A stretch of DNA of 64,000 nt from a virus, in IMG/VR virus record IMGVR_UViG_3300017748_000003, positions 1 through 64,000 of that record; one strand, given 5' to 3'. This document shows, piece after piece, positions 4,154 through 44,950 of the stretch. The first letter of the stretch is position 1, and the number at the start of each line of letters is the position of its first letter. A program made the position numbers and the translations under genes. Below the pieces are notes generated by a model. That model ran no database searches. It had not been told where the DNA came from and saw only the letters and a list, made by a program, of their open reading frames with translations.

Positions 4154-5208
4154 ACTGTCCAGAACCCCCCTGCTATCTTAGCTGTATTAAGTGCAGAGCG
4201 CGCTTCATCAAAAGCTGCATTAGTAGAATCAACAATACTCTGAGCCACAAATAACCCTGTAGCAAGAAATCCAGCAGGGTTGCTTATAAAAAACGGTGGA
4301 ACATTATTAATATCAACGTCTATCGTATAATCAAGATTCCAATGACACAAATGCTGAATTACAACTTCCCACTCAGAAGTAACGGTCTCGTCGTGATTCC
4401 CGGGAGGACCCATAAGCCATACGCGAGCCATGTGCAGTTCATCAGTTATAGGCTCATTAGCTGATCCATCAAGAATCTGCATAGCCGTTGCCTCTACTGA
4501 ATCAGAAGGGACGGCACTAGTAATAGACTGAGAAACATAAAGAGGATTCCTGTCTCTAGCAAAAACGTAATCAACCTGCACTTCAATAGCTACACTAGAG
4601 GGTGCTGCACCGGCGACAGGTATAGCCTCTAAGATAGGTCGGAACTGCTTTAGCGTAAAATCAGATGCTTTTAGCAAACGCTTATCTTCTTCGGCTACAG
4701 ATTGACCAGATCCAGATTCAAAAAGAATACCACTCTGTATATCATCTACAGAAGCAAGTGTTTTTGGCCTAGGCACGCCTTGATCGTGAAACCACTCAGG
4801 TATCGTATATGGGACTTGAGTTAAGCCGTCAGCATTAATGACATTCGCCCAATTATTAACGGGTATCCTAGGTCTCTCTGTTAAATAAGCAGTAACCGAA
4901 TCTTCGCTATCGCCGGACAATTCTAACCGTCTAAGTGTCTTTTGGCCGCAGAAAGACTCAGGAACATTAACTTCTACATTACCGCCTCTTACAAATCCAG
5001 GGTTAAGGCTAGCTGCAAACTGATTAGTAGCCTCATCCCATTCAACGGACAACCTCCAAGGATGATCTAGCTGATTAGCCCTAGGATTAGGGCCTGTAGA
5101 GAGTGGCCTATTCTGATAAATACGAGTACACACCTTGTTCCAGTGATCGTGCTTTATTGCGAAAGGCTCACTTTTATCGTAGTTAGGTAATGTAAATGAT
5201 ATAGGCAT
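4150..5208 (-). CDS. Tail-region structural protein, unknown family
   Basis: A 352-residue protein starting MPISFTLPNYDKSEP, beginning where the upstream 227-residue gene ends. It has no clear motif. The C-terminal 60 residues include a hydrophobic FLATGLFVAQSIV stretch. Position between the tape measure block and the fibre gene suggests a minor tail or baseplate-like component (inference only). Confidence 0.7.
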   Translation of the reverse strand: MPISFTLPNYDKSEPFAIKHDHWNKVCTRIYQNRPLSTGPNPRANQLDHPWRLSVEWDEATNQFAASLNPGFVRGGNVEVNVPESFCGQKTLRRLELSGDSEDSVTAYLTERPRIPVNNWANVINADGLTQVPYTIPEWFHDQGVPRPKTLASVDDIQSGILFESGSGQSVAEEDKRLLKASDFTLKQFRPILEAIPVAGAAPSSVAIEVQVDYVFARDRNPLYVSQSITSAVPSDSVEATAMQILDGSANEPITDELHMARVWLMGPPGNHDETVTSEWEVVIQHLCHWNLDYTIDVDINNVPPFFISNPAGFLATGLFVAQSIVDSTNAAFDEARSALNTAKIAGGFWTV

Positions 5209-23105: not shown

Positions 23106-23122
23106 TTTGCACGGCGTGCTAT
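23106..23122 (-). promoter_or_regulatory. TTTGCAC-type palindrome, copy 6
   Basis: TTTGCAC-GGC-GTGCTAT. The degenerate end is where the ligase TAG stop codon (23121-23119) overlaps the site, suggesting the site was constrained to fit beside the stop. Confidence 0.5.
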
Positions 23123-23955
23123 TTATGGCAAGGCCATACACACTCCTCTGGGCGTTTATCTTCACGCCACCTAATCTGACTATCCACTCCACGCACCGCA
23201 TTAGGATGTCGCATAGATCCAGAGTCAAATATATGCCAGCCTTTCACCTCCAGCACCCTACCCTTAAACTCGTCAAAATTCTCAAATATATACCTCCCCT
23301 CAATATCAGTAAACCCCCCGCCAACCTTTACCTTACTCACAAGCTCCCCTTCTTCGTAAAGGCCGCACAGCAGATTACCCACCATTCCCTTACGCCTACC
23401 CCCACCTTCATTCACCCCCATAACAACGTAGTCCATCGTAAACACCTGCTTACGCCTCCACACCGTAGAGCCTATGTAAGCCTCCTTACTGTTCTTCCAG
23501 ACCAAACCCTCTGCATCCCCATTCTCCACGTATTCGTCCCACAGAGCTTCGGAACGATCAGCAGGGTAATGCTCAGCCATCTTAAGAAAAGAGCAGCCGG
23601 AAATACATTTCTCAGCCATCATCTTCCTATCCACGCAACTATTCAAATACACATCCTGACATCCTACAGAAATACAATCAAACACCTTAACCACTCCGGT
23701 ATCTCCGTCTGCCCCTTCAACCGCTCTCTGAGTCCCAACCAGATACTCTCCGATATACACTCCATCCAAAGCCTTAACCTCTTTCTCAGCTTTCAACTGA
23801 CCTTGACGAGAAAAAACCTGAGCAACCCCACTTCTAACCACAACCCTAGCCCACCACCCATCATACTTAATCTCTACAATGTCAGCACCCCTAGCAACAG
23901 CAGTCTCGTGGTCCTCCACATTCACATACTTTTGAATCCTCTTTGTAAAATCCAT
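23119..23955 (-). CDS. ATP-dependent DNA ligase
   Basis: A 278-residue small ligase. Motif I EIKYDGWW (Lys about residue 30, the AMP-accepting lysine), motif III-like YIGEYLVG, motif IV AEGLVWKNS and motif V WRRKQVFTMDYVV are all present in order. The C-terminal OB domain follows. Codon use leans to G-ending codons far more than in the neighbours, leaving a long antisense frame open, which hints at separate origin. It seals nicks in replication and repair. Confidence 0.9.
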   Translation of the reverse strand: MDFTKRIQKYVNVEDHETAVARGADIVEIKYDGWWARVVVRSGVAQVFSRQGQLKAEKEVKALDGVYIGEYLVGTQRAVEGADGDTGVVKVFDCISVGCQDVYLNSCVDRKMMAEKCISGCSFLKMAEHYPADRSEALWDEYVENGDAEGLVWKNSKEAYIGSTVWRRKQVFTMDYVVMGVNEGGGRRKGMVGNLLCGLYEEGELVSKVKVGGGFTDIEGRYIFENFDEFKGRVLEVKGWHIFDSGSMRHPNAVRGVDSQIRWREDKRPEECVWPCHK

Positions 23956-31775: not shown

Positions 31776-33269
31776 TCACGCTATAAGCAATCTAGGCTTA
31801 GACTGAAGTAACTCATAAGCTACTGATACGGCATCAACCTGATCGTCATGTAAAGCCTCAGGGAAAAGCTCAAGCTCAGTAGTAAAGTCTAAATTCCATG
31901 CTCCACGGACAATAAATACTTTACCTGCCTCTACCAAGTTAATCCACGGCTGAGCACGCAGTAACTTTCCTCCTCTTGGTGGATTTTTCTTCTCCACTTT
32001 TACATCACCCATCAACTGCTCCCTAACATCTTGATAAACTGCATCAAAGCCGCCCACTCCTTCTACGCCTATCCTAAAAACTCTGTAAGCTTCTCTATCT
32101 ACACGGCTAGTCTCTAATATTCTTGCTCTCATTCTAGCCCAAGCTAACTGACCTTTAGTTACATCAATAATGTAAAATCTCTTCTCTCGATCAATAGCGC
32201 ATAAAGCCCCTGCCGTGTAGTCAGAAGATTGCTTCTCAGTCAACGCTAAATCCCATCCACGAACCCACTCAACGTCTTTAGGGACTTCTTCAAGGGTAGT
32301 GTAATTTATTTTAGATACATCAACCTGACCTGACGATGCAGCTACGGGTCTTCCCATGTATTGAGATTCCCACTCATAAGAGGGAATCATAGCTTTTTGA
32401 CCTTCTAAGAATGAAATAGGTCTTTCCTCTGGAAATAAAGCATCTCCTATCTCTCTGCCTAAAGGATCATCTTCTGAGTTACAGATTGCCGGTAAATTAG
32501 TAACTTGAAATATTCTATCAGCCTGACCTGCATCTTGCAGTCTTTGCTTAGACTCTTCTGATATAAGGTGTCCTATAAGATCGTCAGGATGCCACCTAGT
32601 TCCTATAATGAAGATTTTAGCATCTTTAGAAATACGGCTAATACAATCACCGTAAAACCACTGAATAATATTTCTCCTTGAGGACGGCGACTCTGCTTCC
32701 TTACGTCCAGCATGAGCATCATCAATGATAAGCCAATCAACCCTTCGTCCAGTAAGTTTAGATCCGGCAGACCTTATCTGAACAGAAGTGCCATTTGAGA
32801 ATACCTTAGCGAATCTAGTGTTTTGACCCCATACGGGATGAACATCAGGGAATATCTGCTGATATATTGAACTCTCAGTTAGCGAGATAACTTCTTTCAT
32901 GAAGTCAGCTAACAATGCTCCAGAGAATCCTGTCATCCCTATGTGTAAGCCTGGGAACTTTCCAATAAGCCAAGCAACTGCACGAACGCATAACATACGG
33001 CTCTTACCATGCTGAGGTGGAACTGAAATAGTTTGGTTAGGTCCTCTATCTCCAGACAAGACTTCAGTTACTATGGTAGCCAAGTATTTATGTAAATCAC
33101 CTATCGTATAATTACGTGACTCAACTTGAGGATGTATTATATGTAAAAACGAAAGAAGATCTTCCCTAGCAGCCTCAACAAGGGCCTCCATCACAGCTAA
33201 GTGTTCCTCTTGAGTAAAAGTAACTTGCTGGTCTTGTGGTTCAGCTTCCGGCATCGCCATCTCCTTCAT
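31776..33269 (-). CDS. terL: Terminase large subunit
   Basis: A 497-residue packaging motor. ATPase: Walker A-like VPPQHGKSRM (83-92), Walker B WLIIDDAH (179-186) and a coupling region IIGTRWHPDD (221-230). RNase H-like nuclease: WVRGWDLALT with Asp340, and HDDQVDA near residue 480. Overlaps the small subunit gene by 29 bases. An ATG at 33254 is an alternative start, because AAGGAG lies six bases upstream of it. Packages DNA into proheads through the portal. Confidence 0.93.
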   Translation of the reverse strand: MKEMAMPEAEPQDQQVTFTQEEHLAVMEALVEAAREDLLSFLHIIHPQVESRNYTIGDLHKYLATIVTEVLSGDRGPNQTISVPPQHGKSRMLCVRAVAWLIGKFPGLHIGMTGFSGALLADFMKEVISLTESSIYQQIFPDVHPVWGQNTRFAKVFSNGTSVQIRSAGSKLTGRRVDWLIIDDAHAGRKEAESPSSRRNIIQWFYGDCISRISKDAKIFIIGTRWHPDDLIGHLISEESKQRLQDAGQADRIFQVTNLPAICNSEDDPLGREIGDALFPEERPISFLEGQKAMIPSYEWESQYMGRPVAASSGQVDVSKINYTTLEEVPKDVEWVRGWDLALTEKQSSDYTAGALCAIDREKRFYIIDVTKGQLAWARMRARILETSRVDREAYRVFRIGVEGVGGFDAVYQDVREQLMGDVKVEKKNPPRGGKLLRAQPWINLVEAGKVFIVRGAWNLDFTTELELFPEALHDDQVDAVSVAYELLQSKPRLLIA

Positions 33270-33843
33270 CTTGGGTAATAGCTAACTTCAAATCTGGCTT
33301 TGTAGCTAATACTCCTCTTAAAGCAGCTAACTTCTCCTCGTCGTTTAAAGTTCCCTCGTCTACAGATCCAGTAAGAAATACGCCGCCATCTGCATTTCCC
33401 ACATCTACTCTCTCGCGCCTACCGAACTCTTGAGGATTACGCCTTTCTAGGAACCATGCCGCCGCTTGCCACGACTTTCCAGAGCCAGCAGCTTTTTGTA
33501 TAACCATAACATTTCTATGTTCAGCCTCTGCACAAGCGGATTCAATACGGTCATAAACTTCCTTAGCTTTACAGCCTTCTGGAGCTTTCTCACCTTCCTT
33601 TCTCCAGCGATAAAGTGCATCCTTAGATATACCCGCTAAGCGTGCAGCGTTAGTATAAGTATTACCTGCGATAAGCGCATCGCATACCTTCTTAACTACC
33701 TTGTCATCAAAACGTCGATCTGGTCTACCTCCTTGATCTAAAGGAACGGTGTTACCCATAACATCAACCCTAGTAGCAACGCGCTCTTGGGTTTCAATAG
33801 CTCTCTTCCGTCTTCTAGCCCTGACTGCTTTAGTTACTCCCAT
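33241..33843 (-). CDS. terS: Terminase small subunit
   Basis: A 200-residue protein. A helix-turn-helix near residues 58-85 (NTYTNAARLAGISKDALYRW) followed by FLERRNPQEFGRRERVDVG, the pattern of phage small terminases. The Arg/Lys-rich N-terminus could contact DNA. It is encoded upstream of and overlapping the large subunit gene. Recognises packaging sites and feeds the large subunit. Confidence 0.82.
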   Translation of the reverse strand: MGVTKAVRARRRKRAIETQERVATRVDVMGNTVPLDQGGRPDRRFDDKVVKKVCDALIAGNTYTNAARLAGISKDALYRWRKEGEKAPEGCKAKEVYDRIESACAEAEHRNVMVIQKAAGSGKSWQAAAWFLERRNPQEFGRRERVDVGNADGGVFLTGSVDEGTLNDEEKLAALRGVLATKPDLKLAITQDEGDGDAGS

Positions 33844-33859
33844 AATACGTAAGGTTACA

Positions 33860-33876
33860 TTTGCACGAATGGCAAA
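33860..33876 (-). promoter_or_regulatory. TTTGCAC-type palindrome, copy 14, within a possible promoter
   Basis: TTTGCAC-GAA-TGGCAAA. On the minus strand a TTGATG lies one base upstream and TGTAAC directly downstream, so the site again fits a -35/-10 spacer (18 bases), ten bases before the terS ATG. Weaker than the 20669 case. Confidence 0.5.
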
Positions 33877-33898
33877 CCATCAACGCTAAGATCTTTGC

Positions 33899-34513
33899 TT
33901 AGCTATCATCCTCAGCATTAGCCACAGATCTAGCTTTAGCTACAATCTCTCTAAACTCTTCTATGGTAAATACATTCTCCTCAAGACAATGTGGGCAAAG
34001 AAGATCGATCACCGTATCTTCTGTTTCTCCGTCAGAACCTTGAGAGGACCCAGGCGTGGGGACTTGCTGATCGAGCGGCTCCTCACCTTCGTCAGTATCA
34101 TCTTGTGCATCGTTAAAAGAGCTTAGATCCATAATGTCTTTCCACTCCTCCGATTGAAAGAATCCAGCAATATTCTCCATTGACCCAGCACCGAGATCCT
34201 CAAGCTCTTTTTCAAGAGTATCCATGTCCCACTCAGTAAACTCTCCAGCCTTATTGTCTGCGATCCGAAACTGCCTAGCCTTCTCTTCATCTAGTTCAAC
34301 TTGGACAATCCTTACCTTCTCGTATCCAAGCTGAACCAAGGCCCTATACCTAGCGTGACCAGCCAAAATAACTCCGTCTTGGTCAACTACGATAGGCACT
34401 GTGTAGCCATATTTCTGTATAGAGTCCTTAAGAGCGGCTACCGTATCATCGTTTTTCCTTGGATTACGCCAGTAAGGTCGGATGTCATTAATGCTAACTT
34501 CTACAATGTTCAT
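33899..34513 (-). CDS. ParB-like protein with C-terminal zinc ribbon
   Basis: A 204-residue protein from the ATG at 34513 (MNIVEVSINDIRPYWRNPRK). The N-terminal ParB/Srx-type domain (NPRKND, then VPIVVD, then GHARYRAL) spans about residues 1-100. An acidic low-complexity linker follows at about 125-165. CPHCLEENVF near residue 174 is half of a zinc knuckle. It is a paralogue of the next gene. ParB-like domains can act as nucleases, CTPases or scaffolds. The role here is unknown, but it lies beside terS. Confidence 0.75.
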   Translation of the reverse strand: MNIVEVSINDIRPYWRNPRKNDDTVAALKDSIQKYGYTVPIVVDQDGVILAGHARYRALVQLGYEKVRIVQVELDEEKARQFRIADNKAGEFTEWDMDTLEKELEDLGAGSMENIAGFFQSEEWKDIMDLSSFNDAQDDTDEGEEPLDQQVPTPGSSQGSDGETEDTVIDLLCPHCLEENVFTIEEFREIVAKARSVANAEDDS

Positions 34514-34558
34514 TGAATGGTGGGGTAATGTTTTAGAATTAGTGATCGTTATATGCAT

Positions 34559-35125
34559 TTAATCGCCAAGTCTTGAATCAACGTAAAATTTTTCTGAACA
34601 ATGACCGCACTTAATCTCTACCATGCGTGAATGAGCCTCTTCATCTCTGTTCTTATAATGATTCTCGTTAGCCTCAAGCTTCTTATCAATCTGTTCTTGC
34701 GTGGGAGCTATCGCAGAGGCTCCAGCCTCATCTAACGACCCCATAATATTCTCTAACTCACTTTCATCATACCAATCAGCCATTTCTCCGGCTGCTGCTA
34801 CTGCACGAAGTTCATCCTTGAGAAGATCGTGATCCCATACAGACATCTCAGAGATTCTATTATCAATAATACGGAACTCTCTGGCTTGCTCTTCTGTAAG
34901 ATCTGACGCTACTAAAACCGTAACTTTTTCCCACTTAAGTTCCTTTATAGCTAACAACCTTGTGTGGCCTGTAAGGACTACGTTGTTTTCGTCAACCACT
35001 ATTGGCACGTTGTATCCAAACCGTTCGATAGATTTCTTTACGGCATTAATAGCGTCAGCAGAAGCCTTACGGGGATTCTTTTCGTAAGGCTTAATGTCAG
35101 TTATAGGTAAAACTTTTTTATTCAT
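34559..35125 (-). CDS. ParB-like protein with C-terminal zinc motif
   Basis: A 188-residue protein (MNKKVLPITDIKPYEKNPRK). Same order as its neighbour: NPRK near residue 17, VPIVVDENNVVLTGHTRLLA near 40-59, C-terminal CGHCSEKF near 174. A tandem duplication followed by divergence is likely. Overlaps the upstream glycosyltransferase by four bases. Confidence 0.77.
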   Translation of the reverse strand: MNKKVLPITDIKPYEKNPRKASADAINAVKKSIERFGYNVPIVVDENNVVLTGHTRLLAIKELKWEKVTVLVASDLTEEQAREFRIIDNRISEMSVWDHDLLKDELRAVAAAGEMADWYDESELENIMGSLDEAGASAIAPTQEQIDKKLEANENHYKNRDEEAHSRMVEIKCGHCSEKFYVDSRLGD

Positions 35126-35961
35126 TCTATAATTAATTGTTGGTGATTTTTCTGGTGAAATTCGTGAGCGGCCTGAGTCAGTGCTGAATCCCCAACGTGG
35201 AAGTCAACCCCCTTCATGGTCTTCATCATCACGTCCCACCCATCCTTGGCCCCCTTCGGCGGTTCGGCAGGAACTATATACTCCTCTGGGAGCCTGACAA
35301 GCGTAGTGTTACCAGTCATCTTTGCCCACATTCGGAACATCGCTTTCCCGTCAACGTGCTGAATGGCATGGACAGCACAGACCTTGTTGTAGTGGTAGTT
35401 AATCCCTCCGGCGAGGTAGGCGTGCAGGGAGTAGCTCAGGTCATCCCAGCAGAAGTTCCTGCCTTCGTGGAGCTTCATCATTCGCTTCGCGCTCGCCCTC
35501 GACATCATCATCCCGCCGCGCAGGTGAAGCATCACTTTCTTCTCGATGGTTGGCTTGTCCTTGCGGACGAACTCCTTCACGCGATTGACCGTGTTCTTGC
35601 TCTCAACCGTCACGACCCCAGTATCATGCCGCATCGCCAGAGGCTCGGCTAAGATGTAGGGCTTCGTCTCTTCGATGAAATACATATCATCGTCTGCAAA
35701 GCAGATGAGATCGTAGCCTTCCTGCAACGCTAGATTCAGACCAGCGAACCGTGCGCCTACCATCCCGATCATGTCCGGGAAGCTAAGCACCGACCTAACC
35801 TTCGGGAATGGGGAAAGCTGTTTTTCGGTCGGATGGAATCCCTGCGGCACGAGGATAATGTCCCATCCCCTAAGAGGCTGGTGCTCTTCCTCAGTCTTGA
35901 GGAAACGCCAGATCATCTCCTCTCGATGATGTACGCAGGGAACTATAACGGCTCTTCTCAT
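35122..35961 (-). CDS. GT-A fold glycosyltransferase
   Basis: A 279-residue protein. The N-terminal Rossmann-like start MRRAVIVPCVHHREE and FADDDMYF (DDD at residues 90-92) give the metal-binding DxD motif of a GT-A enzyme. WDDLSYSLHAYLAGGINY is the acceptor-side region. Its base composition is clearly higher in GC than that of the genes on both sides (by hand count about 58 percent against about 42 percent over short rows), hinting at recent acquisition. Overlaps both neighbours by four bases. A sugar acceptor such as modified DNA is possible from context. Confidence 0.72.
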   Translation of the reverse strand: MRRAVIVPCVHHREEMIWRFLKTEEEHQPLRGWDIILVPQGFHPTEKQLSPFPKVRSVLSFPDMIGMVGARFAGLNLALQEGYDLICFADDDMYFIEETKPYILAEPLAMRHDTGVVTVESKNTVNRVKEFVRKDKPTIEKKVMLHLRGGMMMSRASAKRMMKLHEGRNFCWDDLSYSLHAYLAGGINYHYNKVCAVHAIQHVDGKAMFRMWAKMTGNTTLVRLPEEYIVPAEPPKGAKDGWDVMMKTMKGVDFHVGDSALTQAAHEFHQKNHQQLIIE

Positions 35962-36641
35962 ACGGTCATCTCTTCTTCCGGGTGCTCCTCTTTATATTTC
36001 TTTTTAGCCAAAAGCTGATTTTTCATTTCCCACGCTTTCTTATACTCTACGTCCTCAAATAGCTTACTAAATCCTGTAACGTGCTTAAGCCTTACAAGTT
36101 CGTCAGCCTCCATGCCAAGCTCAGCGCAAATCTCAGCATCAGACCAGCCATTATCTAACATCTCCAACACCATATTACCCATACCAGCCACCGAATGCTT
36201 ACCCCGTGCGCGGTTATGCCTAACAGTAGATGCCATGCGATCATTAATCTGCTTGTCTAGGACAACGATAGGGAGGAAGCCCTTGCACCACTTCTTAATA
36301 TCAGCGTTCATACGCATTGTGGTAAATCTGTGAAAGCCGTCAATGATAACATACTTATCTTTAGCCTCATCATAGATAGTAACCACAGGCTGAGTATAGC
36401 CGTCATGCTTAATCGAAGTGTATAGAAGCCCCATCTCAGTTTTAGCTACGGAGTTAGGGTTATAGTCATTCGCCTCAACTTGCTCTACAGGGACCCATCG
36501 TATATTGGCAATAGGTTGTTCTGAGAGAGGGCTACGATCAAAAATCCATTGAGAGATTTCTTGCTGCCTGTCTATCTTCTCTCTAGCGTTATCGCAGTCT
36601 GAGAAGAGGGACTCCAAGGTAGATTGCTGTTCTTTAGTCAT
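35958..36641 (-). CDS. IbrB-like ParB-domain protein
   Basis: A 227-residue protein. NDYNPNSVAKTEMGLLYTSI (about residues 58-77) and DKYVIIDGFHRF (about 94-105) form the ParB-type core of the IbrB group. A helix-turn-helix-like region follows (NGWSDAEICAELGMEADELV). It is encoded directly after the PAPS-reductase-like gene, the classical IbrA-IbrB pair seen in many phages and prophages. The pair is known to control some genes in E. coli; the biochemistry is unknown. Confidence 0.8.
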   Translation of the reverse strand: MTKEQQSTLESLFSDCDNAREKIDRQQEISQWIFDRSPLSEQPIANIRWVPVEQVEANDYNPNSVAKTEMGLLYTSIKHDGYTQPVVTIYDEAKDKYVIIDGFHRFTTMRMNADIKKWCKGFLPIVVLDKQINDRMASTVRHNRARGKHSVAGMGNMVLEMLDNGWSDAEICAELGMEADELVRLKHVTGFSKLFEDVEYKKAWEMKNQLLAKKKYKEEHPEEEMTV

Positions 36642-36701
36642 TAGTCTTTATACTCAATTACAGTTTTTGGTAAATTATCTAAGAGATAAAAGCTACACCA
36701 C

Positions 36702-37904
36702 TCACACAACGGAATCCTCGTGTTCGTCATGCGTTTGCACGATGGGCAAATCACCGTCTTTAGGGTCAGATGCTTCTGTAGCTTCTTTTCTAGCTTTTCG
36801 GTTAGCTTTGGCGATTCCATAATTCTGAGGTGCAGCCATAAAATTATCCATCTTTACTCCCTCCCAATCATTACATAAAACAGCACGGGCTTGGCATTTA
36901 TACATACCCTTTTCATTATGACCAGCTAGGTCTAGCTCCATCCTAGCAAAATTTTTCTTAAATCTCTCTTTCCAATCTTCGTCTTCTATAAGCTTATCTA
37001 ATAAATGATCCCTATACTCACGCCAACCAGAGAACATTGGTGGAACTTCTTTTGGGAAATAATCAGCAAAGCCCATCTTACCTGCCATATCTATTCCTGA
37101 GATTCTTTGAACTAACTTCTCGTAAGTCTCAGGCTCCACTTCTTGAATTATAAATAAAGACCATACCGCTGTTTCATGGTGGACGTTAGATACTCGCATC
37201 TTACCCGTCTCAACCCCATAACGATAAAAATGATCGTAAAGCTTACAGTAAGACCAGCCATGCTCGTGAATTGCCTTCCAGACATCAGTATATGACCAAT
37301 CGTAAATAGGATAAAAGGTAAGATTAGGGTTCTCCTCCTTCTGAGTTATCTTAAGCTTTTTAACCCAAGTAACCCATTTGTGTCCCGGAGTTCCTGTAAG
37401 TCCAGCAGCGCGTGAAGGGGACTCTTCTGCTCGGACACCAGCTAAAAAAGCTGTTCTCTTATCCGGCCATATAGCTTTTGGTATATGGGTAAACATCTTA
37501 CTAAAACGATCAGTCCCTAAGTTGTTTTCTGTAATAGCGTAATCTTCCTTAGGACGAATCCACCGATCCTCCTCCTCAGGACTCCAGCACTGTAACCAAT
37601 GCTCTTCAGTAGATGTAGCATTAAAGAGCCTAAAAGGAACCTGTAACCAGTAAGGCTCAACATCAGGGTGCTCCATCTGCTCTCTTACAGCATCAATGGT
37701 AGCTTGCCACTCTGCTTCTTGATCAAGGAATAACACTTTAAGCTTCTCACCACGGGATTGAGCCTCAGCCAGAGCAAGTTCAAATACGATTGTAGAATCC
37801 TTACCCCCAGAAGAACTAACTACGACGTTCTCAAATTCATCAAAGATCCACTTGATCCTCGCCTTTGCCGCCTCAAGAACGTTTCTATTTGAGTAAATTT
37901 TCAT
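36702..37904 (-). CDS. IbrA-like PAPS reductase family (PP-loop) protein
   Basis: A 400-residue protein. PP-loop VVVSSSGGKDST (27-38) is the ATP-pyrophosphatase signature shared with PAPS reductases, IbrA and DndC. Other IbrA-type marks: FLAGVRAEES and YPIYDWSYTDVW. The C-terminus contains a TTTGCAC-type palindrome inside the coding region (36734-36750). Four-base overlap with the 2OG-like gene upstream. It activates a substrate with adenylate; a role in sulfur or base chemistry of DNA is possible but untested. Confidence 0.82.
   Translation of the reverse strand: MKIYSNRNVLEAAKARIKWIFDEFENVVVSSSGGKDSTIVFELALAEAQSRGEKLKVLFLDQEAEWQATIDAVREQMEHPDVEPYWLQVPFRLFNATSTEEHWLQCWSPEEEDRWIRPKEDYAITENNLGTDRFSKMFTHIPKAIWPDKRTAFLAGVRAEESPSRAAGLTGTPGHKWVTWVKKLKITQKEENPNLTFYPIYDWSYTDVWKAIHEHGWSYCKLYDHFYRYGVETGKMRVSNVHHETAVWSLFIIQEVEPETYEKLVQRISGIDMAGKMGFADYFPKEVPPMFSGWREYRDHLLDKLIEDEDWKERFKKNFARMELDLAGHNEKGMYKCQARAVLCNDWEGVKMDNFMAAPQNYGIAKANRKARKEATEASDPKDGDLPIVQTHDEHEDSVV
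36734..36750 (-). promoter_or_regulatory. TTTGCAC-type palindrome, copy 15 (in coding sequence)
   Basis: TTTGCAC-GAT-GGGCAAA, inside the last 16 codons of the IbrA-like gene, 90 bases upstream of the IbrB-like ATG. A TATAAA box lies five bases before that ATG, so the site may control the downstream genes. Confidence 0.5.
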
Positions 37905-38416
37905 TCAGGTAGGTGACCTCCTTTTGATCCAGTAAGCAGTCCCAAGAGAAGAGGAATGGCTTCTTCTGGTGCGTAAGGTTTTGAAGAGTCAACCGATGCC
38001 GCAAGATAATATTTAGGCTTCTCTGTAGCATCCTCGCGTGGTAGCACGGCGTGAGGCGACCACGTATCCAGCAGGAAATAAGTCCCTCTAGTTAGGGGCA
38101 GACCTACTTTATTGTAGCCTGACAATTCATACTCATCTACGAAGAAAAGAATCTGCATGGTGTAACGCAGAAATCCCGGGTCAATATGAAGAGGCACACC
38201 CTTCTTCGCTCCAATGTAATGAGGGTCCATCTCTGCTCTCTTATCGGGAGCACGCTTCCACGTCTTAAGGTATCTGTTTGGTCCTCCGAACACTATATCC
38301 AGTTCTTCTTGAGTAGGTGTCCATGCATCGTCAGGCAACTCAACGTAAGTAGACATCAGCACAGGGTTCGGTACCATGTGGGTTTCTAAAGGGTCTGTGT
38401 ATTTAAAAGCTCCCAT
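37901..38416 (-). CDS. 2OG-Fe(II) oxygenase-like protein
   Basis: A 171-residue protein. The facial triad is visible: HID at residues 77-79 (GVPLHIDPGFLRYTMQILFF) and His122 in TWSPHAVLPRE, with beta strands in between as in a double-stranded beta helix. A basic residue for 2-oxoglutarate may be Arg127 or a Lys near 141. I cannot tell which family (TET/JBP-like base hydroxylase or protein hydroxylase). Placed between the GT trio and the IbrA-like gene, so a hydroxylation before glycosylation is a reasonable guess. Confidence 0.6.
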   Translation of the reverse strand: MGAFKYTDPLETHMVPNPVLMSTYVELPDDAWTPTQEELDIVFGGPNRYLKTWKRAPDKRAEMDPHYIGAKKGVPLHIDPGFLRYTMQILFFVDEYELSGYNKVGLPLTRGTYFLLDTWSPHAVLPREDATEKPKYYLAASVDSSKPYAPEEAIPLLLGLLTGSKGGHLPE

Positions 38417-38418
38417 AA

Positions 38419-38991
38419 TTAATAAGGTATTGGATTTGAAAATGTTTTCGATTGACGCTTGGACGAACGCTTAGGATCAATCACGCTCTTGCCTTCAAGA
38501 TGGTCGACTAGGCTCGGACAATGAATCCAGTATTTCTTCTTCTCCACTTTCTTAAAGTAAAACCGGACAACCATATCAAGAGGCTCCTTGTATAGCAGCT
38601 TAGGATCGTCACGATCTTGACGTAACATGTATTCAGACATTCTTCGGCTCCACCCTGCCGGAAGGTAAAAGCACTGAGCCATAAGAAAGCTGTTGTCCCA
38701 ACGAGACCCTTCGGTAAGGTCGGCCTTCCTCATAGAAAAGAACTGGATAGCGGTATCGGGCATCGAGGCGATCACAGATTCAACCTTCTCGTTAAATCCC
38801 TGAGTCAGAATAATGTCATCTTCCATGTGCAAAGCGGCATCGTGACCTGCTTGCAGAAGAGCGCGGTAAAAGGTATCCCACGCTGATTGGGTCGTATCCA
38901 TACAGAACTCCGCACCCTTCAAGTGCTTCTGTAAATAATCAACACAATGAGGTCGATGATTAGGAACTGCTCTTACGATTCGTCTTGTCAT
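38419..38991 (-). CDS. GT25-like glycosyltransferase, paralogue 1
   Basis: A 190-residue protein. HMEDDIILTQGF (EDD at 57-59) and IHCPSLVDHLEGKS near residue 155 are the pattern of GT25-type glycosyltransferases (LPS and phage types). It overlaps paralogue 2 by four bases. Likely intact. Confidence 0.68.
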   Translation of the reverse strand: MTRRIVRAVPNHRPHCVDYLQKHLKGAEFCMDTTQSAWDTFYRALLQAGHDAALHMEDDIILTQGFNEKVESVIASMPDTAIQFFSMRKADLTEGSRWDNSFLMAQCFYLPAGWSRRMSEYMLRQDRDDPKLLYKEPLDMVVRFYFKKVEKKKYWIHCPSLVDHLEGKSVIDPKRSSKRQSKTFSNPIPY

Positions 38992-39524
38992 GGTCGGTAA
39001 GTCTTAGATACCCATTGGGTGTTAGTTACACGGTCTACTGGATTCGGGCAATGAATCCAGAACTTACGCCCTGTCTCTTTCACCCAATCAGCAATCCCTT
39101 CGTCATAATGAATAGCCCGTGATGCCTTCTGAATCTCGCGCCATCTAGGAAGGTAGTCCAATAGTTCCTCACTCCACCCAGACGGTAAGTAAAAGCAGGT
39201 TGTCATCATAAGATTCCGATCCCACCGAGAGCCTTCGGTTAAGTCTTTCTTTCTCATTGAAAAGAATTGGACCATTCTGTGTGGGTCTTCTAAAATGACA
39301 TCTTCTACCACCGAGCGAAATTTACCATTAACGCGAACACCGGATTCCATGTGAAGAGCAGCGTCACCTTCAGCTTTACCCAAAGCAGTCAAGAACGTAG
39401 AGAACCGATCCTGCTCATTTTCGGGGACGTGGACGCGGCCTGTAGTATCGGAGAAGAATCCCCACGTAGACAGGAATCCTCTCACGTCCTGCGGCCTATG
39501 ACGAAGAATAAAACGATAATTCAT
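38988..39524 (-). CDS. GT25-like glycosyltransferase, paralogue 2 (degenerate)
   Basis: A 178-residue protein clearly homologous to paralogue 1 (for example MRKKDLTEGSRWD against MRKADLTEGSRWD). The metal motif has changed from EDD to ESG (60-62), and the usual DH of the C-terminal block is DR (VDRVTNTQ). It probably lacks catalysis or serves as a partner subunit. Confidence 0.65.
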   Translation of the reverse strand: MNYRFILRHRPQDVRGFLSTWGFFSDTTGRVHVPENEQDRFSTFLTALGKAEGDAALHMESGVRVNGKFRSVVEDVILEDPHRMVQFFSMRKKDLTEGSRWDRNLMMTTCFYLPSGWSEELLDYLPRWREIQKASRAIHYDEGIADWVKETGRKFWIHCPNPVDRVTNTQWVSKTYRP

Positions 39525-40153
39525 AACTTGCCAATCTTAGCGTGATCCCATCTTCTCAAAAGGTCTTTAGAGAAGAGCGACGAGACTCTTGCTTTACCTT
39601 TGATGGACTTAGGATGTCCTAGGGTAGATGGGATTTGGTTGTTATGGTTGCAGAGATTTGGTAGTGTTAAAAGGAATGACTTTCCAGTCTGCTTAAGGAA
39701 CTTCTGTAATCCATAGTCATCCGCCCTTGTGATCCTTCCTTTCTCCGGCTGGTATAAATTCTCATCGGTAGCCCACTCAAGATACTCTTCGATGAACTTA
39801 CCTGTGTAGTAATTCGCCGGACACCAGAGCCTTTGTGTTTCAGCATAACAGAATCCTTCATCGTAAAGCTGCCTTTGTTTGTCTGTTAGACCGATGAGAA
39901 AAATCATACACCGATCAGGAACCATAGCTTTATCGAGTTCCTCTCTAAACCACGTAGGGATAATGACATCATCTTGGATAATTAGAACCCCATCTCTATT
40001 CTCCTTCATTATCTTAGTCAGATGCCAATGTGTTCCTAGGTAATCTGGATCAGTAGACACATAGGGGTTAAGGCCCTTCAGCCTTTCGACCAAGGAAGGA
40101 ATCATAATAGACCTTGAGGGAACAGTCTGAATAACCGTATTCTCAGGAATCAT
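39521..40153 (-). CDS. GT25-like glycosyltransferase, paralogue 3
   Basis: A 210-residue protein. LIIQDDVIIPTWF (DD at 61-62) and LPNLCNHNNQIPST near residue 175 match the same family. Further diverged from the other two. Overlaps both neighbours. Likely catalytic. Confidence 0.65.
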   Translation of the reverse strand: MIPENTVIQTVPSRSIMIPSLVERLKGLNPYVSTDPDYLGTHWHLTKIMKENRDGVLIIQDDVIIPTWFREELDKAMVPDRCMIFLIGLTDKQRQLYDEGFCYAETQRLWCPANYYTGKFIEEYLEWATDENLYQPEKGRITRADDYGLQKFLKQTGKSFLLTLPNLCNHNNQIPSTLGHPKSIKGKARVSSLFSKDLLRRWDHAKIGKL

Positions 40154-40634
40154 CTCTAAACTTTTTCTTCATAAGCTCGAAGTCTTGCTTTGCGGTCATC
40201 GCTGGGCGTTTAGGTGGCCCCGGAAGATGAGTAGCGATGTTCGGCAGCTTCGACCGATTGACTAGACCGACCACTCGATAGTCCTTGTCCATATACCAGT
40301 AACACCTGCCCTCAAAATCGAAGTAACGTAGCTTCAGCTTCCAGAAGTAAGCGTCGTAGCCGTAGTCATGAATATGCTTAATGAACCGCTTGTAGTCAGG
40401 GATTCGGTTCTGTGGTACGGTAGCCTCGATACGTGTGTATTCGTGAGGATACTGCGGCATTGTTTTCGCAGGCTCCCAAGTGCAATCTTCTACTAAATCT
40501 TTTATTTCTTCTTCCGTCATAAATGCGGGTAGCGTTAATTCGCCGTTGTGTGCTGTGCGTGTAAAGACGTAACGGTTCCAAGGCGCGTTGCCCCAAGTGA
40601 CTGTCGTAACTGTCTTTTTCTGGTTACTTTTCAT
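40143..40634 (-). CDS. First gene of modification/packaging operon, unknown
   Basis: A 163-residue protein (MKSNQKKTVTTVTWGNAPWN), aromatic-rich (YDAYFWKLKLRYFDFEGRCY). No family recognised. It overlaps the GT trio by 11 bases and has a TTGACA promoter. A 26-base part of its coding sequence is repeated in its own leader. Confidence 0.65.
   Translation of the reverse strand: MKSNQKKTVTTVTWGNAPWNRYVFTRTAHNGELTLPAFMTEEEIKDLVEDCTWEPAKTMPQYPHEYTRIEATVPQNRIPDYKRFIKHIHDYGYDAYFWKLKLRYFDFEGRCYWYMDKDYRVVGLVNRSKLPNIATHLPGPPKRPAMTAKQDFELMKKKFRDDS
40514..40539 (-). repeat. Direct repeat, coding copy
   Basis: 26 bases (TTAACGCTACCCGCATTTAT core on the minus strand) that match 40650-40675 with one difference. 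This copy encodes LTLPAFMT of the 163-residue protein. Confidence 0.8.
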
Positions 40635-40649
40635 TGTAAGGCCGGCCTG

Positions 40650-40675
40650 CCGTCATAAATGCGGGTAACGTTAAT
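40650..40675 (-). repeat. Direct repeat, leader copy
   Basis: Second copy, 136 bases away, in the leader between the promoter and the ATG. Suggests a partial tandem duplication or a recombination relic. Confidence 0.8.
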
Positions 40676-40704
40676 ATCTTACTGCGCCTGTTTCTTTGTG
40701 TCAA
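40676..40704 (-). promoter_or_regulatory. Promoter TTGACA-N17-TAAGAT
   Basis: Perfect -35 TTGACA (40704-40699), 17-base spacer, -10 TAAGAT (40681-40676). It should drive the glycosyltransferase, oxygenase, IbrAB and terminase operon. Leader about 35 bases. Confidence 0.72.
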
Positions 40705-40725: not shown

Positions 40726-41205
40726 TTACTTCCTCCTTACGCCTAGTATCTTACCTTCGTAGTAAGCCAGAGGAGTTTTACAGACTGCCCTGCTTTGGGT
40801 AGGGCGATGAATGCACTGCCCGTTACCTACATAAATTAGGATATGCCCAGAGGTTCCAGACCTACTACCCCTCCAAGTTATAACAACATCACCGGGTCGA
40901 ATACCAATAAGCGACACTTGCCTGCCCCACGATAGCCAGTTCCTAGCCATAGCGTAGTGGGGTGGTGTATTACCACCAGAGTCGTTAATGATTCTTCCCA
41001 CCCAATTAGCGCACTGACGAGACTGCCCGTAACGGTAATGTTTTCCTTCCCACTTTTTAGCCTCAGATACAATAGCCGTAGCGGTGTATTGTCCGGGAAT
41101 AAGGTCTCTAAATAAACGTTTCTCTTGGCCGTAAGAAGTCCCTAGGCAACTAGAAACCAATACAAAGATAACCAGAAACTTATGTATTAACGTGTTAATG
41201 TTCAT
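40726..41205 (-). CDS. Exported NlpC/P60- or CHAP-like endolysin
   Basis: A 159-residue protein. A Sec signal covers about residues 8-24 (FLVIFVLVSSCLGTSYG), and VSSC (17-20) also fits a lipobox. HYRYGQSRQCANWVG (Cys65) and TSGHILIYVG (His121) give the catalytic Cys/His of papain-like peptidoglycan hydrolases. This would be a secreted lysis enzyme that needs no classical holin for export. Its ATG is only five bases past the -10 box. Confidence 0.7.
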   Translation of the reverse strand: MNINTLIHKFLVIFVLVSSCLGTSYGQEKRLFRDLIPGQYTATAIVSEAKKWEGKHYRYGQSRQCANWVGRIINDSGGNTPPHYAMARNWLSWGRQVSLIGIRPGDVVITWRGSRSGTSGHILIYVGNGQCIHRPTQSRAVCKTPLAYYEGKILGVRRK

Positions 41206-42595: not shown

Positions 42596-43462
42596 TTACA
42601 TAACCTCTTTATAGTGCTTGCCTCTATCAACTAAAACCATTTCGTAATTATCTATCCCGCTACCTACAGAAACACCTTCAGACCTAGTAAGCTTATTCTC
42701 CTTAAAAGAAGAGTAATCAACTTGGTGATGCCAGCGATTAAACTTACGAGTAACCCTAACTACATCAGGATGCTGCTCAGCCAGAGACTCAGCAAACTCC
42801 TTACGGTCATTAGTCTTCTCGTATAAATCATTCGTATTGCCGCCATCCATTCTCATCGTAGTCACCTTCCCGCAGAGGAAAGCGTTAAACAAAATAGTGC
42901 ATAACCCAGACTTAAGGACGCGAAGTGACAAGTCTGTGTCCTCGTTAAATCGTCCTCGCCACCGGAACTCTAGAGAGTTGTTCACTAGAATGCATGAGTA
43001 AATCCTAGTGTTGGTATAAAAAGGAGGAACAGGGTCTGTCGCTTTAGCGAAGGAATAATAGTTCATACCCGACAGACCTACATTTGAGAACCTGTCAGTA
43101 AAGTCTTCACAGGCTCGGAACGTAGCATTAGTCCTAACCCTAAACTTAGTATTCTTGTTAAGACGATTAAAATCCTCAATGTTATCGTCCAGAATCCAGT
43201 GCCTCTCGTCGCCTCTAGCGAGCGAGTGATTCCAGACCCAATTACGGACGGGTATAGACCCGCAGCCTCTCTCAGAGAAGTCTAAGGGCAGCACTAGGAC
43301 ATCTGACCCCACCCACTGATTGCGTCGATAAGCATCAACCTCAGAAGGCTCCACTACTACCTTAAATGGAACGTTACACTTCCTAAGAGATCTAACAGTA
43401 ATGCACGAGCTAGGTCTACCTTTAGATATAACGTAGACAGGATATCTTAATTCTTTTGCCAT
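42596..43462 (-). CDS. TAGT-type (TET-associated) glycosyltransferase
   Basis: A 288-residue protein. The pattern YPVYVISKGR at the start, then RHWILDDNIEDF (DDN at 92-94), then FRWRGRFNEDTDLSLRVL near residue 170, then LFNAFLCGKVTTMRMDGGN, and a C-terminal FNRWHHQVDYSSFKENKL is the whole signature of the TET/JBP-associated glycosyltransferases that decorate hydroxymethylated bases in phage DNA. Overlaps the methyltransferase gene by 16 bases. A clear TET enzyme is not seen in this window; the 2OG-like gene at 37.9 kb is the nearest candidate. Confidence 0.82.
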   Translation of the reverse strand: MAKELRYPVYVISKGRPSSCITVRSLRKCNVPFKVVVEPSEVDAYRRNQWVGSDVLVLPLDFSERGCGSIPVRNWVWNHSLARGDERHWILDDNIEDFNRLNKNTKFRVRTNATFRACEDFTDRFSNVGLSGMNYYSFAKATDPVPPFYTNTRIYSCILVNNSLEFRWRGRFNEDTDLSLRVLKSGLCTILFNAFLCGKVTTMRMDGGNTNDLYEKTNDRKEFAESLAEQHPDVVRVTRKFNRWHHQVDYSSFKENKLTRSEGVSVGSGIDNYEMVLVDRGKHYKEVM

Positions 43463-44193
43463 ACGTTAGGACGGTCATTCCAAAACCCCGTCTTTACTTT
43501 TTCATAGCCTGATTGCTTAAGGATATTAGCAAACATCCTACCCATCTTACTATGATGAATATACGAATCAAGAGGGATAACCTTAGAAGACCAGCGAAGG
43601 TTGTAGAAGTAATCAAAATGCCCAAATGATTTTGCATTAAAAGCATTAGCCATAACTATTACCTTTGGCTTGTTCACTTCTAAGATTTCAATTAGGTGAT
43701 CGCCAGCGTGATAAATATGCTCAAAGTATTCACTAGCGAAGACTAAATCAACTGGCCCAGCTTCTTTGTGGTCAGGCAATACGTCTATGTGGCTAGCGCA
43801 AAAATCATACTGCTTAGTGCCTTTAAGATTAGTGCCAACCACCCTGCCACATCCTATATCCTCAAGTGCTTTAGTGGTAAGGCCCAAGCCGCACCCTAAG
43901 TCTAAACAGGTATCAACAGTAAGATTAAGAGACCCCACCTTCTTTATATACTCTGATGAATATATTTTGTAACAGGCTAGTAGGTCGCAGAAATACCAAT
44001 CATCGTCATATAACTTGTAAGCGGCATCCTCATAGTCCAAGGCTTCATACCATTTATTCCTCAAGTCTTCAGCCCACTTAGAGCAGCCTTTTCCGTTGTA
44101 GTGATTTAAGACATCCGTATACCTCTGCTTTGCAGATGTAATGTCTATAGAATACATCTCGCAGTATAATTTAATCGCCTCTTCAATCTTCAT
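43447..44193 (-). CDS. Class I SAM-dependent methyltransferase
   Basis: A 248-residue protein from the ATG at 44193. Motif I DTCLDLGCGLGLTTKALED (about residues 93-111), then a post-motif I VVGTNLKG and motif IV-like DLVFASEYFEHI. There is no C5-methyltransferase PCQ motif, so it is more like a small-molecule, sugar or protein methyltransferase. Genes overlap with the TAGT enzyme, which hints that it modifies the same product. Confidence 0.75.
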   Translation of the reverse strand: MKIEEAIKLYCEMYSIDITSAKQRYTDVLNHYNGKGCSKWAEDLRNKWYEALDYEDAAYKLYDDDWYFCDLLACYKIYSSEYIKKVGSLNLTVDTCLDLGCGLGLTTKALEDIGCGRVVGTNLKGTKQYDFCASHIDVLPDHKEAGPVDLVFASEYFEHIYHAGDHLIEILEVNKPKVIVMANAFNAKSFGHFDYFYNLRWSSKVIPLDSYIHHSKMGRMFANILKQSGYEKVKTGFWNDRPNVWQKN

Positions 44194-44194
44194 C

Positions 44195-44479
44195 TCAATC
44201 AACTATAACTTTTCTTCTAACTCGGCTACGCTTCCGCTTTCGAGTCTTTGATGGAGGCAGTGCATCTACATACATCTTACCTCTGTTAAGTCCCTTAATC
44301 AGTTTAGGAAACCAGACGCTCTTAGTCTTAGGTGTAAGCTTCTGATCTAAAGCCTCAGATAATTTGTCTAGGCTCTCCGCATCAGGCACACGAACAATAA
44401 TCGTTGCGTATGCTTCTTGCTTCTCCTGTTGAAACTCAGGCATCCCCTCCCACAGGTCTTGTGATTCTTTCTTAGTCAT
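44195..44479 (-). CDS. Conserved small phage protein, unknown
   Basis: A 94-residue protein. YATIIVRVPDAESLDKLSEA, then KTKSVWFPKL, is a pattern that I associate with small phage proteins near ParB/TAGT genes. The C-terminus is Lys/Arg-rich. Function unknown. Confidence 0.65.
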   Translation of the reverse strand: MTKKESQDLWEGMPEFQQEKQEAYATIIVRVPDAESLDKLSEALDQKLTPKTKSVWFPKLIKGLNRGKMYVDALPPSKTRKRKRSRVRRKVIVD

Positions 44480-44485
44480 ATCGCC

Positions 44486-44950
44486 TCAATCTAACCAAGC
44501 AGGGGCTTGTCTCTTAGTCCACTTATGCAGATGTGATTTAGCAGAGCGGTAATAAGATCTATAAGCAACTATAGAATCTTCGTGATAAAACTCTTCTGGC
44601 ATAGCTTGGGCAAACGGTGTCATTGACGAAGACTCAGGAATAATGTCGATAGAGATATTATCCCAGCACCATTGAATTACATCAATACTAGCATGACTGC
44701 CTCCGAACCGATAAACCTTTTCCTTACCTAAAGCCATGCCGTGGTGATAAAGCCACTCGTAATTCTTTAAGCATTTCCTAGCCCATATAGTGCAGGGGTG
44801 ATTGTAGTAAGCCCTAAGATAAGGAGCGTCCCCTTTGGGGTAGGCTGAGCACATCATCTGTGCTGTCTCTAGAATCATCTTATTTACGTGCTTGTCTCCA
44901 AGTGCTTTTGCTGCACGCTGCGGTCGTATGTCTACTGCGAATATGTTCAT
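44486..44950 (-). CDS. Conserved phage protein (DKHVNKM type), unknown
   Basis: A 154-residue protein. DKHVNKMILETAQMMCSAY (about residues 18-36), HPCTIWARKCLKNYEWLYHH and TPFAQAMPEEF are marks of a widespread phage family sometimes annotated as a DNA glycosylase-like protein. That function is not established and no known catalytic residue set can be assigned here. In this neighbourhood a nucleotide-related role is plausible. Confidence 0.7.
   Translation of the reverse strand: MNIFAVDIRPQRAAKALGDKHVNKMILETAQMMCSAYPKGDAPYLRAYYNHPCTIWARKCLKNYEWLYHHGMALGKEKVYRFGGSHASIDVIQWCWDNISIDIIPESSSMTPFAQAMPEEFYHEDSIVAYRSYYRSAKSHLHKWTKRQAPAWLD

Follow-up and report, generated by a model that had tools for sequence, protein, structure and literature searches.

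Gene organisation of the cassette

The window analysed here (i.e. bases 1-64000 of the 74,020-base virus record IMGVR_UViG_3300017748_000003) contains a continuous run of twelve minus-strand genes, from 40634 to 31776, in the order U163-GT1-GT2-GT3-OX-IbrA-IbrB-GTA-ParB1-ParB2-TerS-TerL, which combines glycosyltransferase-like proteins, a putative oxygenase and an IbrA/IbrB pair with the terminase genes, and which is referred to below as the cassette. A first-pass annotation of the sequence had described an operon of overlapping genes beside the terminase, proposed to hypermodify nucleic acid, and this layout was borne out. The junctions range from -29 to +60 bases, with a 4-base overlap at most of them and 60 and 55 bases as the widest gaps; such tight packing makes co-transcription of the run likely. 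The TTGACA promoter that had been placed at 40676 is unsupported: it belongs to a 10/12 sigma-70 match (40704-40676), of which the stretch has 4 against 3.8 expected and which are equally frequent in shuffled sequence, so that with a match count no higher than chance it was rejected as evidence for co-transcription. The downstream edge is formed by the terminase small subunit TerS (33241..33843; phrog_4102), followed by the large subunit TerL (31776..33269; phrog_38). No nucleotide-level relatives of the record were found among deposited phages.

The core of the cassette is formed by IbrA (36702..37904), a PP-loop ATPase of the superfamily resembling 3'-phosphoadenosine-5'-phosphosulfate (PAPS) reductases, and its partner IbrB (35958..36641), of the ParB/sulfiredoxin superfamily. 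Both had been recognised in the first pass and both assignments hold, with IbrA matching PF01507 (PAPS_reduct, 58.7 bits) and DUF3440 above cut-off as well as phrog_2302 (1.7e-83), and IbrB matching phrog_2159 (3.3e-74); a PAPS-reductase-like PP-loop protein with DUF3440 is thus followed by a ParB-like protein, as in other IbrA/IbrB pairs. Virome papers routinely read genes with a PF01507-type match as sulfur metabolism (PMC9301287; PMC7785012), which would make IbrA a true PAPS reductase serving host sulfur assimilation (i.e. an auxiliary metabolic cysH gene). For the present gene this is highly improbable. The curated CysH models TIGR00434 and PRK02090 give 24.8 and 34.2 bits against cut-offs of 165 and 154, the genomic partners are not sulfur genes, and the C-terminal catalytic motif of CysH (CGxH, or CG(I/L/V)H) is absent from IbrA and from all of its 78 relatives (0/78), while the SGGKDS PP-loop is present in IbrA and intact in 77/78. 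It has also been noted that the functions of PAPS-reductase-type viral genes may reach beyond sulfur metabolism (PMC11437467), and viral "cysH" annotations of the IbrA type are probably wrong.

In a library of defence genes, the best matches of IbrA are in fact DNA-modification enzymes, BrxP (1e-6) and DndC (2.3e-6). Since IbrA scores only 21 bits against the cut-off of 290 of the DndC family model, and since no cysteine is conserved at 90% across its relatives, sulfur transfer through the DndC route seems unlikely from the sequence. Two further ParB-like genes, ParB1 (34559..35125) and ParB2 (33899..34558), had been called ParB-like zinc proteins; the ParB part of that call stands (ParB_N is above cut-off in both), and each protein has one C-terminal CxxC, and a CxxC is found in 77/80 relatives. 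Both are also similar to the ParB segment in a model of a type II methyltransferase.

The first gene of the run, U163 (40143..40634), was absent from the genes listed in the first pass and proved to be conserved in other loci. It belongs to an orphan family with no match at meaningful scores in Pfam, PHROGs, NCBIfam or PADLOC; its structure is predicted with a confident core (about 90-96), for which no fold match was found in the PDB, and a single-sequence tblastn search of deposited phages gave no match. Elsewhere the family occurs either alone, as a protein of 90-100 amino acids, or fused to a class I S-adenosylmethionine (SAM) methyltransferase: the chain exceeds 200 amino acids in 15/62 proteins, and 13 of those 15 carry the class I SAM-methyltransferase motif. 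In loci L047, L054, L056 and similar ones, U163 and its methyltransferase are split into two adjacent genes.

U163 is followed by the three glycosyltransferase-like proteins GT1 (39521..40153), GT2 (38988..39524) and GT3 (38419..38991; phrog_854, 2.8e-7), which form a single family with a conserved DD motif and had been described in the first pass as a GT25 trio. Only GT1 and GT3 look active, because GT2 has SG in place of DD (MESGV); it has also lost a conserved His and is probably degenerate. The link of the family to GT25 is weak but repeated (PF01755 in 3/19 members with a best E of 0.0085, and Mimivirus R655 at E 0.025); PF01755 gave no match in this record, where control sequences were also silent. 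A fourth enzyme, GTA (35122..35961), has a DDD motif; it had been called a GT-A glycosyltransferase and is indeed of the GT2/GT-A type. Profile comparison gave no match to the TAGT glycosyltransferases, and a relationship with these was rejected.

OX (37901..38416) matches no family model. Its predicted structure is a double-stranded beta-helix (predicted local distance difference test 90, predicted TM-score 0.85), and an alignment of eight relatives has H77xD79, R84-Y85 and H122 common to all, with H77, D79 and H122 as the metal triad (HxD...H). Fold matches are cupin and double-stranded beta-helix proteins, including AspH, proline 3-hydroxylase and viral AspH-like proteins, at low TM-scores (0.3-0.47). 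We read OX as a divergent putative 2-oxoglutarate (2OG)/Fe(II) oxygenase, on its model nearer to AspH than to TET/JBP. The oxygenase-like character seen in the first pass is thereby retained through fold and triad, and a TET/JBP identity was rejected on account of the AspH-like fold and the absence of a match to PF12851 in the record. Single-sequence tblastn of OX against 50,697 deposited phage records gave no match, and in bacterial genomes there was one, on a short contig of a metagenome-assembled genome.

The resemblance of OX to AspH and proline hydroxylase folds, together with a Mimivirus glycosyltransferase among the GT25 relatives, would also fit enzymes that hydroxylate and glycosylate phage proteins (e.g. 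collagen-like fibres, cf. the Mimivirus hydroxylase/GT25), in which case the proximity to the packaging genes would reflect late expression. A collagen-like substrate is not supported, as the record has no collagen-like stretch or PF01391 match and only 5/18 of the tested cassette records have one. Protein modification moreover leaves IbrA, the ParB proteins and the DNA-methyltransferase partners of the cassette unexplained, which makes it a distinctly improbable explanation.

Recurrence of the cassette in other phages

The first-pass annotation had suggested searching for the same gene set in other phages, and such a set exists: the order ParB - U163 - decorating enzymes - IbrA - IbrB - ParB - terminase recurs in tens of non-redundant loci, from many phages that are unrelated to one another. 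Among the 80 loci kept from an IbrA query against viral contigs, U163 has a member in 63/80 and the run extends to TerL in 57/80, while IbrB directly follows IbrA in 74/76. The slot (i.e. the genes upstream of IbrA) is closed by another ParB gene in 34 loci. These 34 slots contain U163 in 32 cases, and otherwise a GNAT (14), a DNA-methyltransferase-like protein with a DPPW motif (11), a GT25-like protein (10), OX (3), an S-adenosylmethionine (AdoMet) decarboxylase (3), GTA (1), a second methyltransferase (1) and, in 2, an unlabelled small frame. Group-transfer or oxidising enzymes thus account for nearly all of the slot content.

The linkage also holds in the opposite direction. IbrA is present in 34 of the 36 non-redundant loci found by searching for OX only (with a GT25-like gene in 33 and a GNAT in 0), in 38/42 found with the glycosyltransferase family and in 45/53 found with the DPPW methyltransferase, and several of the loci without IbrA are short contigs. 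Within the reach of these profiles, which were built from cassette loci and may miss remote relatives outside the cassette, the linkage of the slot enzymes to IbrA is nearly obligate. For statistics an unselected IbrA set of 50 loci at 80% identity was used, leaving out the pooled loci, which had been chosen by their slot enzymes. In this set at least one slot enzyme is found in 41/50 loci, and GT25-like proteins and OX co-occur (p = 0.02), which fits hydroxylation followed by glycosylation. On a deep FastTree tree of IbrA (with saturation as a caveat), slot contents switch about as often as shuffled labels, as would be expected if the core stays fixed while the slot is exchanged.

Free exchange of slot content could also mean that IbrA/IbrB and the ParB genes are Ibr-type regulators, with the transferases as unrelated morons in a permissive site (including ones that change surface glycans or lipopolysaccharide). 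The name of the pair and its published annotation point that way, IbrA/IbrB being listed as co-activators of prophage gene expression (PMC4490671; PMC5874904; PMC8813620). A permissive site would, however, gather varied genes, whereas the content of the slot is nearly confined to a few group-transfer families, and these families are seldom found elsewhere in the searched viral set; we regard this explanation as improbable.

One indication of what the slot enzymes act on comes from the DPPW methyltransferase, whose profile matches the beta-class adenine-specific DNA methyltransferases DpnA, CcrM and MboIIA (4e-11 to 2e-7). PP-loop enzymes often act on tRNA, and it is conceivable that the cassette modifies RNA (tRNA or mRNA) instead, with a TilS-like IbrA and with methyltransferases, GNATs and sugar transferases that finish a tRNA base; the methyltransferase fused to U163 does weakly match a tRNA-methyltransferase phrog (3e-8). 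DNA is favoured over RNA because the slot methyltransferases align with DNA adenine methylases, because the ParB-type partners point to DNA, and because terminase rather than tRNA genes adjoins the cassette, so that RNA seems an unlikely substrate. The DPPW methyltransferase is often paired with a second methyltransferase-like family that carries D(I/V)PW (loci L053, L226 and L231), which suggests a heterodimeric enzyme.

Related arrangements occur in cultured phages. In the Microbacterium phages Hendrix, Rasputia and Leaf, one end of the genome encodes glycosyltransferases, a GNAT, the U163-methyltransferase fusion and IbrA; at the opposite end Hendrix (the only deposited phage with GT25-like relatives of the queried member) has IbrB, two ParB genes and TerL. 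Dewdrop is another cultured Microbacterium phage with the cassette. In Mycobacterium phage Athena and Arthrobacter phage LiSara, ParB-IbrA-IbrB lies ahead of the terminase, in LiSara together with a methyltransferase, while Bacillus phage 031MP004 has ParB, IbrA, a methyltransferase and IbrB. The methyltransferases of LiSara (L156:5559-6137) and 031MP004 (L087:6079-6630) look similar, both lying beside IbrA/IbrB, and are a candidate slot family.

Proposed function of the cassette

Following these results, we consider it moderately probable that the operon represents a modular cassette, widespread among phages, for the chemical modification of nucleic acid, the likeliest target being the DNA of the phage itself. 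Nucleic-acid modification, as first proposed, hence remains the best reading, given the DNA-methylase relatives, GNATs and AdoMet decarboxylase in the slot and the BrxP and DndC matches of IbrA; its framing as a TET/JBP-TAGT pathway is not supported. The first-pass suggestion that modification comes before packaging, or is checked at that stage, would find its support in the conserved position beside the terminase and is speculative. By analogy with DndC/DndB, DpdB and BrxP, IbrA might use ATP to adenylate either a base carbonyl or the group to be joined onto the base, while IbrB, as a ParB-type nucleotide-binding partner, would couple this activation to DNA and U163 would help in selection or catalysis, after which the exchangeable slot enzymes would decorate the product. 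In the present phage, OX would add a hydroxyl and the GT25-like GT1 and GT3 a sugar, to be extended by GTA and perhaps by a TAGT encoded upstream; elsewhere the decoration might be a methyl or acyl group and, where AdoMet decarboxylase is present, perhaps an aminopropyl group. In its most specific form, namely that a primary modification of the nucleobase, of an undescribed kind, is made directly in DNA by IbrA/IbrB and U163 through ATP-dependent adenylation and is then diversified by the slot enzymes (with sugars, acyl, methyl, aminopropyl or hydroxyl groups), the proposal is a possibility that we put forward tentatively.

Gene order, motifs, recurrence, near-obligate linkage, slot exchange and the relatedness of one slot family to DNA methyltransferases are computed observations, from which we infer the substrate, the order of the steps, the chemistry of IbrA and a role in escaping restriction. 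Several points weigh against modification of the phage DNA. All of the chemistry is deduced from the genes, the evidence for GT25 and 2OG membership consists of folds and weak sequence similarity, the published annotation gives IbrA/IbrB a co-activating role in the expression of prophage genes (PMC4490671), and a recognised slot enzyme is missing from the surroundings of 9/50 IbrA/IbrB pairs. Furthermore, the record avoids palindromes (mean observed/expected ratio of 4-mer palindromes about 0.75), as do many cassette phages, a pattern that does not suggest a fully protected DNA. Most extreme is GTAC, with 6 occurrences in the whole record versus about 220 expected from trinucleotides (observed/expected 0.03), which suggests strong restriction pressure at this site. 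Any modification is therefore probably either recent or incomplete in the sites that it shields. Of the six GTAC sites (window positions 5126, 6801, 13425, 35931, 38371 and 40415), three lie inside the cassette (p = 0.012), a concentration that hints at its recent (i.e. late) acquisition. Since T4 also shows partial avoidance (of GATC), avoidance is no refutation of modification and does not tell for or against it.

Relation to known systems

DNA-modification precedents exist for the components of the core, namely the Dnd system (with the PP-loop enzyme DndC and the ParB-superfamily protein DndB), the ParB-like DpdB of the Dpd system, and BrxP (PMC12839542). Like the cassette, Dnd and Type-4 BREX place a PP-loop enzyme of the PAPS-reductase superfamily (BrxP in the latter) in a DNA-modification cluster, in Dnd also with a ParB-superfamily protein (PMC12839542). 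The cassette differs in that its IbrA falls far below the DndC cut-off and lacks a conserved cysteine, in being phage-borne with transferases, and in that no dndA/D/E/FGH or pglZ partners were seen with it. With the Dpd system (7-deazaguanine modification of DNA) it shares a ParB-like protein (the DpdB ATPase) that serves base modification, whereas no transglycosylase or queuosine genes were found in the cassette, of which IbrA is the core. Mu Mom, a GNAT-family enzyme for acyl modification of adenine, may be comparable to the GNATs that fill the slot in many relatives, in contrast to the slot of the present phage, which has no GNAT. The IbrA/IbrB pair itself is tied to known pairs, which we take to be of the YbdN/YbdM type, by PHROG membership and published annotation; unlike those, it is here the centre of a gene set that also includes U163 and decorating enzymes.

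The T-even and TET/JBP-TAGT pathways of pyrimidine glycosylation likewise employ phage glycosyltransferases, and the TAGT gene reported upstream of the operon is genuine: a homologue of beta-glucosyl-hydroxymethylcytosine-alpha-glucosyltransferase lies at 42596-43462 on the minus strand (PF20691, 156 bits; phrog_842), overlapped by a class I SAM methyltransferase gene on the same strand (43447..44202), both possible accessories. In this record, which may be incomplete, no match was found to TET/JBP (PF12851), C5-methylases or the thymidylate-synthase family, nor was a hydroxymethylase detected; AGT and BGT also gave no match there, their controls scoring only below cut-off. TAGT was moreover not matched in any of 35 other cassette-carrying records, and the TAGT and methyltransferase genes were therefore rejected as part of the conserved system. 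TAGTs of T2 and T6 add a sugar to a base that is glucosylated beforehand, and a TAGT without AGT or BGT is found in many phages (PMC13216743). The TAGT of the present phage, lying outside the conserved system, may extend a sugar laid down by the cassette.

Near these two genes lies a pyrimidine-dimer DNA glycosylase-like gene (44486-44950; PF03013, above cut-off), and directly upstream of the cassette an NlpC/P60 peptidase gene with an apparent signal peptide (40726-41205). An open frame with the KYDG motif that is typical of ATP-dependent DNA ligases is found at 23119-23955; in Hendrix, too, a DNA ligase is encoded close to the terminase. Beyond the window, at 71013-72246 of the record (L002:11013-12246), two tandem sulfotransferase-like genes, the first matching phrog_3347 (galactose-3-O-sulfotransferase, 1.3e-8), lie next to a tail-like gene and a gene for a large protein without assignment, possibly as a further glycan-modifying set.

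Implications

No prior description of the cassette was found in the open-access literature searched, although an earlier mention of parts is possible; judged by that literature, the cassette is new as a system. This agrees with the first-pass remark that the combination was not recognised as a described one, yet it is widespread among phages. If the explanation offered here is true, phages carry a modular DNA-modification platform, and IbrA/IbrB, known by name only, gain a testable role. Because the cassette is present in cultured Microbacterium phages, existing isolates can decide the matter, and new enzymes for attaching sugars or other groups to DNA would be useful tools. The explanation, if true, would also overturn the common reading in virus ecology of viral cysH-type genes as virus-driven sulfur cycling (PMC9301287; PMC7785012). 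In its most specific form, put forward tentatively above, many viral cysH genes would be DNA-modification genes, and a combinatorial platform for decorating DNA would be shared by phages at large.

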